Shown here: positions 33,868 through 53,863 of the stretch, piece by piece | Position numbering within the stretch: position 1 is the stretch's first letter | Layout of the letters: every line of letters begins with the position of its first letter | The notes under the pieces: generated by a model | The model's input: only the letters and a program-made list of their open reading frames with translations | Told to the model about the DNA's origin: nothing | Databases searched by the model: none | Made by a program: the position numbers and the translations under genes | Assembly (NCBI GenBank): GCA_022826905.1 | Contig: JAJDUA010000034.1 | Span: forward strand, 1 to 64,000 | DNA length: 64,000 nt | From: Candidatus Dadabacteria bacterium | GTDB lineage: Bacteria; Desulfobacterota_D; UBA1144; Nemesobacterales; Nemesobacteraceae | Direction of reading: 5' to 3'

Positions 33868-35292
33868 TCAGGATGTGATGAACTTCTCGAGGGTGGCCGA
33901 AACCGCCGTGACTGCGTTTGACACCGAAGGGTCCTTGGCAATCTTTTTTTCAACGTTTTTTACTGCGTGGACCACCGTGGAGTGGTTTTTCCCGCCGAAC
34001 CTGTTTCCTATCTCCGGGAACGACGATGAGGTGTATTTTCTCGAAAGAAACATCGCTATCTGTCTGGGTTGAGAGACTTTTTTCTGCTTCTGGTTGGATT
34101 TAAGATCCTTTACGGTGAGGTCAAAGAAGGTGCTCACCTCTTTCTGGATTAGATCTATGGTTATTATTTTCGGGGTTTCTTTTTTTACCAAGTTGCTAAG
34201 AAGCTGCTTTGCCAGTTCGAGAGTTATTTTCTCTCTGAACATCTTGGAGTAGGCAAAGAGCTTGTTCACCGAGCCTTCAAGTTCCCTTATGTTAGAGAGA
34301 ACATTCTGGGCCACAAACGAGGCCACGTCGGTCGGGATCTCGATATTTTCCTCCTCGGCTTTTTTCTCTATAATGGCTATCTTTGTTTCCACTTCCGGCG
34401 GCTGTATGTCGGCCGTTAGCCCCCACTCAAATCTGGACTTCAGGCGTTCCTCGAAGTTCTTCATAACGCTTGGGGGTTTGTCGCTAGTTATAACTATCTG
34501 CTTCTTCGCGGTGTAGAGGGAGTTGAACGTGTGAAAGAACTCTTCCTGTGTGCTGTCTTTCCCGGCGATGAACTGTATGTCGTCTATCAGCAGGACGTCG
34601 CAGTTCAGTCTGTAGAGGTTCCTGAACTTGTCCATCGAGCCGGTTTTTATGCTTTGCACCACCCCGTTTGTGAAATGCTCGGCCGAGATGCAGAAGGTGT
34701 TCAGACGGGTTCCATACTTTTTGAGTATGTGGTTCCCTATGGAGTGAAGCAGGTGGGTTTTCCCGAGGCCAACTCCGCTGTGTATGAAAAGCGGGTTGTA
34801 GGCCATTCCCGGGTTCTCAGCTATGGCGTATGATGCGGCGTGGGCAAACTGGTTACTCGGCCCGACGACAAAGTTATCAAACGCGTTGGATGAACTGAAG
34901 AAGCTTGCTGTCTGGGGATCGTGTGATTCTATGGTTCTATGGTTGTTTCCTGGGGCCATGTTTTTTTTAGTTTCCTTGGTCCAGGAGTTCTCCTCGCCCA
35001 CGTCTATGATTACTTCGAAGCCTTCTTTTCCGTAGAGAATGCGGGCAGTATCGTTTATCAGCTGCAGGTAGTGGTTTTTCACCCAGAGGGCTTGGAAGTG
35101 GGTTTTCGCTTCAAGCGTGACGATCTTTCCCTCGATCTTTGCGACTTTTATGGAGAACAGCCAGGAAGGGGGAAAATAAAGGTCTTTCTTTACGCCGTCG
35201 AGAACAGCGTCCCAGTCAAATTCTACTTTTTGTTGGGGTTTTTGGTTTTCGGTAGCCAAGTTGTCGTGCGCAACTTCCTCTGTCTTTTTCAA
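33868..35292 (-). CDS. dnaA: Chromosomal replication initiator protein DnaA
   Basis: The product is 474 residues. The N-terminal helicase-interacting domain is at about 25-105 and a short linker follows. The AAA+ domain has Walker A HSGVGLGKTHLLHSIGNH, Walker B CDVLLIDDIQFIAGK and the sensor region ITSDKPPS. The C-terminal helix-turn-helix has the signature FGGKNHSTVVHAVKNVEKK, so classical DnaA boxes are expected targets. The TTG start at 35292 follows GGAG by eight bases. The promoter at 35377-35405 gives a leader of about 80 bases, where autoregulation could act. It heads the leftward run dnaA-dnaN-gspLMN. Confidence 0.98.
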   Translation of the reverse strand: MKKTEEVAHDNLATENQKPQQKVEFDWDAVLDGVKKDLYFPPSWLFSIKVAKIEGKIVTLEAKTHFQALWVKNHYLQLINDTARILYGKEGFEVIIDVGEENSWTKETKKNMAPGNNHRTIESHDPQTASFFSSSNAFDNFVVGPSNQFAHAASYAIAENPGMAYNPLFIHSGVGLGKTHLLHSIGNHILKKYGTRLNTFCISAEHFTNGVVQSIKTGSMDKFRNLYRLNCDVLLIDDIQFIAGKDSTQEEFFHTFNSLYTAKKQIVITSDKPPSVMKNFEERLKSRFEWGLTADIQPPEVETKIAIIEKKAEEENIEIPTDVASFVAQNVLSNIRELEGSVNKLFAYSKMFREKITLELAKQLLSNLVKKETPKIITIDLIQKEVSTFFDLTVKDLKSNQKQKKVSQPRQIAMFLSRKYTSSSFPEIGNRFGGKNHSTVVHAVKNVEKKIAKDPSVSNAVTAVSATLEKFITS

Positions 35293-51639: not shown

Positions 51640-52323
51640 ATGTCTGATACTATAATGAAGGCCCAGATCGGTGGAGATATAGCTCATCTCAGAAAACTGA
51701 ACCCAGATCTTTACGACTCCTGGATGGCTTATCATGATTCGGTTTTTACCGACGGAGCTCTCACCGCAAAGGAAAAACAGCTCATTGCAGTGGCAGTAGC
51801 ACACATTACGGCTTGTCCTTACTGCATAAGGTCAAGGGTTCGAGCCAGCAAAAAAGAGGGAGCGAGCGACCAGGAGATAGTCGAATCGATATACGTGGGG
51901 CTTAGGCTCAACATGGGTGGCCCTTTCGCGTTTTCAAGCCTGGCTTTTGAAGCCTGGGACACCCTCGAAAGCGGCATCCCGCTTACCGAGGGGCACTTCT
52001 TTAAAAAGGATATAGCGAAGGAAATTGCCAGTTTCAGGGAATGCAGCGGCGATATTTCTCCCCACTTCATGGAGCTTCACAAGAAAATTTTTGCCGACGG
52101 AGCCCTCAGCAAGAAAATGAAAAGGGGTATAATAGGTCTTGCCTGCGCTCACGCGACTAAATGTCCTTATTGTATAAGGGGAACCGTGAAGGACGCGCAT
52201 ACCGACGGCGTAACTGCGGAGCAGATGGCTGAAGCCATAAACGTTGCTATGGTTATGACTGCCGGTTCCTGTTATGCGCACACCAGCATTGCCATGGACA
52301 CACTTAAGAGTCTCGAGAAATAG
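51640..52323 (+). CDS. Tandem carboxymuconolactone decarboxylase-like (AhpD-like) protein
   Basis: The product is about 227 residues made of two CMD domains. The first (about 15-110) has the redox motif ITACPYCIRSRV, and the second (about 125-220) has ATKCPYCIRGTV. Each CxxC with its nearby His is like AhpD, which passes electrons to peroxiredoxins. One chain holding two half-units may replace a homodimer. GGGGGG precedes the ATG at about ten bases. A decayed TetR gene lies upstream, suggesting that an older peroxide- or drug-type control has been lost. The stop is followed by the parS-containing terminator. Confidence 0.88.
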   Translation: MSDTIMKAQIGGDIAHLRKLNPDLYDSWMAYHDSVFTDGALTAKEKQLIAVAVAHITACPYCIRSRVRASKKEGASDQEIVESIYVGLRLNMGGPFAFSSLAFEAWDTLESGIPLTEGHFFKKDIAKEIASFRECSGDISPHFMELHKKIFADGALSKKMKRGIIGLACAHATKCPYCIRGTVKDAHTDGVTAEQMAEAINVAMVMTAGSCYAHTSIAMDTLKSLEK

Positions 52324-52361: not shown

Positions 52362-52399
52362 GCCTTGAATGTTTCACGTGAAACATTCAAGGCTTTTTT
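52362..52399 (+). promoter_or_regulatory. parS: parS site inside a Rho-independent terminator
   Basis: The 16-base parS consensus TGTTTCACGTGAAACA is perfect at 52370-52385. It is the centre of a 32-base perfect palindrome (52362-52393) followed directly by six T residues (52394-52399). As RNA it would form a 14-base-pair stem with the central ACGT as loop, so it can end transcription of the AhpD-like gene. As DNA it is a ParB nucleation site. Confidence 0.95.
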
Positions 52400-52439
52400 C
52401 CTCTGACCGAATGCGGTTTTATATGGTAAATTCTCTTTC

Positions 52440-53834
52440 ATGTCGTCACTTGTGCCCGAGCGTGAAAGCACCATAGCTGCCATTTCCACTCCGCCTGGAG
52501 AGGGAGGAGTGGCCGTAATCCGCATAAGCGGTGGTGAATCTCACTTGATTGCGAGGAAAATCTTCGTTCCCGCAGGAAACTCGGGTTTTTCCGAGAGAAA
52601 ACTCTGTTTCGGGAAGATAATCAACCCCGAAACAGGCGGCACAGTGGATGAAGTCCTGTGCGTTGTCATGAGTTCCCCCGATACCTATACGGGAGAGGAC
52701 GTAGCCGAGATACACTCCCACGGGGGACATATGGTTCCCCGGAAGATACTTGAGATTATGATCAGCCTCGGGGCAACCCTCGCCGCCCCGGGCGAGTTTA
52801 CCCAGAGGGCGTTTCTCAACGGAAAAATGGACTTGGCGCAGGCCGAGGCGGTTTCCGACATTATAAGCGCCCAGACCGAACAGAGCCTCCACTACGCCGA
52901 GGCTCAGCTTGAAGGGACCCTTTCGGGAAAGGTTAACGAACTTAAGGATCAAATTCTTGACGTTCTGGCAGAAATAGAGGCGAATCTCGATTTTCCCGAG
53001 GAAGACATAGATCCAATTGCGAAAAACCGTCTCAAGGAAACGTCCGAATCTGTGGAAAAAGAACTTTCGGCGCTCATCGATAGCTACGACACGGGCAGAA
53101 TGTTCAGAGACGGGGTGACGATGGTAATATTGGGCAAGCCTAACGTCGGGAAATCGAGCATACTTAACTGCCTGCTTGAGACTCAGAGGGCTATAGTGAG
53201 CCCGATAGCCGGAACCACTAGGGATTTTATCGAAGAGAGAATCAATGTCGGGGGAATTCCCCTCGTTATAACGGATACTGCCGGCATAAGGGACACGGAG
53301 GATCGGATAGAAAAGCTGGGAGTGGAGCTTTCCCTGAAAAAAGCCGAGGAGTCCGAGTTCGTGCTCGTCGTTTTGGACCAGAGCACGGAACTTGATGCCT
53401 TGGACAGGAAAATCCTCAAGACCGCCGCCAAAAAGAAGCATCTTGTCGTAATCAACAAGGTAGACCTTGAAGAAAAGCTGGAAAGATCGAAACTGCAACG
53501 GATTCTCGGGCGAAGAAAGCCGGTTGAAACCTCGGCACTTGCAAAAGAGGGAATAGGACGGCTCAGGCAGGCTATGTTCGAGACCCTTGCGGACTCGCCT
53601 CGTGCCTCAGATGCCTCGGAACTGGTACTTACAAATCTTCGCCACAAAAAATCCATGGAGAAGGCCCGCAACCAGCTGCGCATGTTCCTTGAGCTTCTTG
53701 AGCGGAACGAGTATCCAGAGATTCTCTCGATAGAATTGCGAAACTCAATGAATTCGCTCGGCGAGATTACGGGAGAAGTGACCACGGAAGATCTTCTGGG
53801 CAGAATTTTTTCCAGATTCTGCATTGGAAAGTAG
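52440..53834 (+). CDS. mnmE: tRNA uridine-5-carboxymethylaminomethyl GTPase
   Basis: MnmE with MnmG modifies the wobble uridine of several tRNAs. The 464-residue product has the folate-binding N-terminal domain (STIAAISTPPGEGGVAVIRI SGG), helical EIHSHGGHMVPRKIL and FTQRAFLNGKMDLAQAEAV, and the G domain: G1 GKPNVGKSS, G2 IAGTTRD, G3 DTAGI, G4 INKVD. It ends with the catalytic CIGK tail. No ribosome site precedes the ATG. It sits between two parS sites; mnmG and parAB, often near, are not in the window. Confidence 0.98.
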   Translation: MSSLVPERESTIAAISTPPGEGGVAVIRISGGESHLIARKIFVPAGNSGFSERKLCFGKIINPETGGTVDEVLCVVMSSPDTYTGEDVAEIHSHGGHMVPRKILEIMISLGATLAAPGEFTQRAFLNGKMDLAQAEAVSDIISAQTEQSLHYAEAQLEGTLSGKVNELKDQILDVLAEIEANLDFPEEDIDPIAKNRLKETSESVEKELSALIDSYDTGRMFRDGVTMVILGKPNVGKSSILNCLLETQRAIVSPIAGTTRDFIEERINVGGIPLVITDTAGIRDTEDRIEKLGVELSLKKAEESEFVLVVLDQSTELDALDRKILKTAAKKKHLVVINKVDLEEKLERSKLQRILGRRKPVETSALAKEGIGRLRQAMFETLADSPRASDASELVLTNLRHKKSMEKARNQLRMFLELLERNEYPEILSIELRNSMNSLGEITGEVTTEDLLGRIFSRFCIGK

Positions 53835-53847
53835 AAGCGGGACGGAA

Positions 53848-53863
53848 TGTTTCACGTGAAACA
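53848..53863 (+). promoter_or_regulatory. parS: Second parS site
   Basis: A second perfect TGTTTCACGTGAAACA lies 14 bases past the mnmE stop, inside a 20-base palindrome (53846-53865). It has no T run, so it is not a terminator. Confidence 0.95.

Follow-up and report, generated by a model that had tools for sequence, protein, structure and literature searches.

Genes and sequence elements around the junction

The window analyzed here, a 64-kb stretch of DNA from a Candidatus Dadabacteria bacterium, contains an ahpD-like gene followed on the same strand by mnmE, and the space between the two holds a parS site set within a longer palindrome. The features referred to below are as follows:

33892..35166, minus strand: dnaA (TIGR00362, 2.5e-151)
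51640..52323, plus strand: ahpD-like gene, carboxymuconolactone decarboxylase family (Pfam CMD, 1.3e-29; two CMD domains); ATG at 51640, stop codon at 52321-52323
52362..52393, plus strand: 32-bp perfect palindrome, folding as a 14-bp RNA hairpin with an ACGU loop (inverted-repeat search and fold)
52370..52385, no strand assigned: parS, perfect consensus TGTTTCACGTGAAACA (0 mismatches), the inner part of the hairpin
52394..52399, plus strand: T6 tract of the predicted intrinsic terminator (read from the sequence; terminator scan)
52403..52432, plus strand: candidate mnmE promoter, CTGACC, 18 nt, TAAATT (read from the sequence)
52440..53834, plus strand: mnmE (trmE), tRNA-modification GTPase (Pfam MnmE_helical and TrmE_N), between both parS
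53848..53863, no strand assigned: second perfect parS (0 mismatches)

The palindrome at 52362-52393 reads GCCTTGAATGTTTCACGTGAAACATTCAAGGC and runs directly into TTTTTT, its two 16-nt arms (52362-52377 and 52378-52393) matching at 100% with no spacer, and its outer arms, GCCTTGAA and TTCAAGGC, being G+C-rich and lineage-specific. The original prediction, which placed a perfect parS in the middle of a 32-base perfect palindrome followed by T6, is exact by sequence. Folded as RNA, the same 32 nt yield an energy of -21.8 kcal/mol (z -6.8), a value equaled by 0 of 200 shuffles. Strong terminators carry G+C pairs at the base of the stem beside the T run, and such pairs are found at the base of the parS hairpin, adjoining its own T run. 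The element displays the stable hairpin, G+C-rich base, and directly following U tract expected of an intrinsic terminator, and its orientation is that expected of a terminator serving the ahpD-like gene, as the stem starts 38 nt past the stop codon with the T run on the sense strand. Among 34 terminator-like sites in the region scanned (44.5-64 kb) the parS hairpin has the longest stem, and only two hairpins in the 64-kb window combine a stem of at least 8 bp with at least 6 T in 8 bases, the one without parS being the weaker. Given a parS, the computed chance of finding eight extra pairs and an adjoining T6 is approximately 6e-9. Beyond the T run, the candidate mnmE promoter is of weak consensus and was not picked up by a promoter scan (8 of 12 matches); the sequence TATATGGTA(G/A)ATT is conserved in most of the genus.

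The second parS, absent from the listing that accompanied the original prediction, lies 13 nt past the mnmE stop codon, and a search of the whole 1.78-Mb assembly allowing up to two mismatches returned these two sites only, such that mnmE is bracketed by the only two parS of the genome. A terminator was sought at the second site (53848-53863), and none is present there. The parS within the predicted terminator is located approximately 17 kb from dnaA, near which the GC skew turns.

ParA and a canonical, parS-type ParB (not Noc) are encoded on another contig of the assembly (C25). The ParB of this genome carries the GERRWRA motif and, when aligned to solved ParB chains and mapped by eye, keeps the Arg and Gly at positions 173 and 201, both of which are reported to be absolutely conserved in ParB (PMC7383237). 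A TGTTTCACGTGAAACA palindrome, few copies near the origin, and cognate ParA and ParB are what characterize chromosomal ParABS systems, and the site described here shares with them the 16-bp consensus, the origin-proximal position, and the accompanying ParA and parS-type ParB. It differs in that chromosomal parS are usually described within or between genes without an RNA role, whereas the Dadabacteria site forms the core of a predicted terminator stem. In a complete relative (G007), parB (C1 618608) is found approximately 465 kb from the parS/dnaA region (1084297), a placement unlike the usual origin-proximal one of parAB.

As any terminator hairpin is itself a palindrome, it could be argued that this one is an ordinary terminator resembling parS by accident, with no ParB site involved. 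Such a reading is highly improbable in light of the perfect 16-bp match, the location of both parS of the genome beside mnmE and near dnaA, and the finding that relatives without the hairpin (G014 and G020) also have a parS upstream of mnmE.

Conservation and covariation within the genus

The genus comprises 14 genomes, 13 of which hold the ahpD-mnmE junction, the contig of the remaining genome (G009) beginning inside mnmE. Close relatives found in the named collection are MAGs of Candidatus Dadabacteria, with MnmE identities of 95% and 88%, and the genomes carrying the arrangement belong to a sponge-associated Dadabacteria group. Wherever the junction is held (13/13), parS sits in a stem of 13 to 15 bp, and 5-8 of the 8 bases after the stem are T, with fold energies of -20 to -27 kcal/mol and with the T run on the ahpD-sense side only. 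While the parS sequence is invariant in the genus, the flanking arms drift yet stay paired. The parS downstream of mnmE provides a good internal control because it is met by the same ParB; in the 13 genomes measured, it is extended by 0-5 bp, has at most one G-C pair in that extension, and lacks a T run.

Covariation was analyzed over 14 stem pairs in 12 distinct rows, with 500 shuffles. Within this alignment 99.4% of cells are paired, 4 of the 14 pairs have changed on both sides in a compensatory manner, and not one of the 500 shuffles matches the observed percentage paired or the covariation score. The ten inner pairs, within which the whole of parS falls, are constant and uninformative with regard to structure. 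Where only one partner of a pair has changed, the outcome is in every case a G-U or U-G wobble as read on the T-run strand (UG in two cells and GU in three, counted over distinct rows), and no A-C change occurs among the one-sided changes in the 12 rows. Each of these wobbles is a mismatch both in the DNA palindrome and in the RNA of the opposite strand. Since they pair only in RNA of the T-run strand, they favor selection acting on transcripts that run out of ahpD, though they may represent only two or three events given that most carriers form one clade in the tree.

These patterns bear upon a second alternative, in which selection maintains the long palindrome at the DNA level, be it as a stronger ParB site, a site for another regulator, or a cruciform, with the T run being incidental. 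The absence of a spacer and the perfection of the palindrome would suit such a role, and long parS palindromes without T runs do exist in Gordonia phage Woes and in Paenibacillus. Selection on DNA alone is nevertheless an improbable account of the element, as the T run is one-sided in all 13 genomes with the junction, the arms drift in sequence as a protein site would not, the wobbles are tolerated though they break DNA symmetry and suit RNA, and the mnmE-downstream parS of the same genomes manages without arms. A chance origin was also considered and is rejected by the figure of approximately 6e-9, the 13/13 conservation, and the covariation. The comparative evidence thus lends good support to a dual anatomy of ParB site and predicted terminator, and the earlier proposal that one element serves as both after the AhpD-like gene is upheld, as predicted anatomy, by conservation, covariation, T-run polarity, and the presence of a canonical ParB.

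Origin and independent occurrences

In the sister genus (G014), parS lacks arms and lies 57 nt from the mnmE ATG, the corresponding distance in the window genus being 54-65 nt. The junction of the sister genus holds a separate strong terminator, consisting of a 16-bp stem and T6, with a T run ending one base before parS. This arrangement suggests that the function of the terminator was transferred to parS, and a separate terminator directly before parS is probably the earlier state. Between ahpD and mnmE, G016 and G027 carry other hairpins and no parS, and in the more distant families f3 and f5 of the order parS is found only 3' of mnmE, often abutting TTATCCACA boxes. Judging from the few lineages available for comparison, the simplest order of events would begin with an intergenic terminator beside which a parS was gained, followed by loss of the separate hairpin and growth of arms and a T run around parS.

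The parS abutting DnaA boxes in relatives within the order was considered as a template for the window element and rejected, as it corresponds to the mnmE-downstream site. In f3 and f5 this downstream parS directly abuts TTATCCACA / TGTGGATAA DnaA-box-like inverted repeats (e.g., L050 7211, L051 7236, and L054 7108), suggesting that parS has been fused to an origin element in these families; the mnmE-downstream parS of the window genome has no DnaA-box-like repeats. Family f8 of the same class, represented by 14 reduced genomes of approximately 1 Mb (G044-G057), did not match the pattern of parS with its flanks, and parS may have been lost or altered in these genomes.

The standing of the parS hairpin among terminators was assessed in a 416-kb sample of the complete relative G007, where it ranks as the 4th strongest of 422 hairpin-plus-T sites. 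T-tailed hairpins clearly outnumber A-tailed control hairpins only at the strong end of this sample (7 versus 0 at -20 kcal/mol or below). With so few strong intrinsic terminators in the chromosome, the bacterium may rely mainly on other means of termination.

A strict pattern scan of 387 genomes matched 4 of 317 genera, with true palindromes in two only (the window genus and that of G323), counts that are lower bounds since the strict pattern misses A+T-richer arms; the possibility that such hairpins are a universal feature of parS is rejected. In G323, two parS (L194 1513, 1581) lie 68 nt apart 3' of a gene, and one of them is contained in a near-perfect stem followed by T5 in terminator orientation. 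In Riemerella anatipestifer, a parS terminator hairpin lies just 3' of mnmG and the other parS just before mnmG (L205 2078, 4007), so that mnmG is bracketed by two parS in parallel to mnmE in the window genome. A scan covering 18 genomes of Bacteroidota plus a Riemerella record found a parS terminator in Riemerella only, again as a lower bound. The Riemerella "plasmid" records carry mnmG and ybeY, and therefore look like pieces of chromosome.

Similar hairpins occur in phages, and the independent cases from bacteria and phages alike are placed 3' of a gene and oriented as terminators. Three gokushovirus-type records have a parS terminator, which in these ssDNA phages (L206 2604, L207 3006) takes the form of a GGG-parS-CCC hairpin followed by T6 to T8, and one faecal phage record constitutes another independent case. 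Four phage contigs (L172 3649, L175 6321, L181 2296, and L182 10320) display GGGAG-parS-TTCCC and a long T run, with the hairpins sitting between structural-type genes, a tail-type gene and then the next gene. Across the viral collection the same pattern gave 43 matches for parS versus 0 for two control palindromes, a contrast which speaks against accidental resemblance to parS but which partly reflects how common parS is. Gordonia phage Woes (L210 1087, 1508) has at least two long parS-centered palindromes without T runs, and related phages match.

Proposed termination and ParB loading at a single site

The explanation that we favor, with a probability of roughly three in four, is that a genuine origin-proximal parS came to serve, through its own dyad symmetry, as the loop-side half of an intrinsic terminator for the ahpD-like gene. 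According to this sequence-based proposal, lineage-specific G+C-rich arms and a T6 tract would have been added around parS; polymerase leaving ahpD would transcribe parS, the resulting RNA would fold as a hairpin, and transcription would end at the U tract, ahead of the mnmE promoter, while ParB would load on the duplex DNA of these 16 bp. We infer that both termination and ParB loading take place at the element. The likely benefit would be compactness together with insulation of mnmE, as read-through into mnmE would be blocked by the hairpin in the absence of ParB and by protein on the template when ParB is bound.

A more far-reaching version, in which ParB occupancy sets read-through from ahpD into mnmE, or the terminating polymerase sets ParB loading, appears unlikely. 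The footprint of RNA polymerase is large enough that an enzyme pausing at the U tract would extend over part of parS, and the convergent appearance of parS terminators in other lineages is compatible with such coupling; mnmE, however, seems to own a promoter past the terminator, and little read-through may therefore exist to control. Studies of other systems point in both directions. Active transcription does little to disturb ParB patterns on plasmid F and is no major obstacle to ParB binding there, whereas promoter-bound complexes are (PMC6238139). In Pseudomonas aeruginosa, ParB represses promoters neighboring the intergenic parS3 and parS4 (PMC5521831), so that ParB acting on the mnmE promoter is no less plausible than ParB acting on termination. 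Were a ParB-responsive terminator to operate here, segregation and local transcription would regulate each other. Similarly, it is a doubtful extension that centromere-terminators are a class that recurs under selection across unrelated bacteria and phages, with ParB occupancy and termination influencing one another; if true, these elements would couple the segregation of chromosomes (or phages) to transcription nearby.

Under the favored explanation, one 16-bp sequence appears to be selected both as DNA, in the form of a ParB centromere, and as RNA, in the form of a terminator stem, and offers a clean natural case in which the coexistence of transcription and ParB loading is directly testable with a small reporter. 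It would also exemplify exaptation of a palindromic binding site as a terminator, as has occurred with uptake sequences.

A search of the literature for parS joined with a terminator found no description of parS as a terminator core. Both parts are of known kinds, and by analogy their fusion resembles the DNA-uptake-sequence (DUS) terminators of Neisseria and the uptake-signal (USS) terminators of Pasteurellaceae, in which a DNA motif recognized by a protein also acts as an intrinsic terminator (PMC2397512). DUS and USS terminators are built from two inverted copies of the motif and are present many times per genome, whereas the Dadabacteria element consists of one palindromic site occurring once; with a single parS rather than two repeated motifs as its stem core, it falls outside that class. 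The P. aeruginosa parS3 and parS4 are, like the site described here, intergenic and beside promoters, and ParB affects transcription there, but unlike the Dadabacteria element they have no terminator hairpin reported in the available part of that source (PMC5521831). In mycobacteria, parS overlaps the -10 element of the gidB promoter (PMC2346475), and so likewise coincides with a transcription signal near the origin, in that case a promoter and not a terminator.
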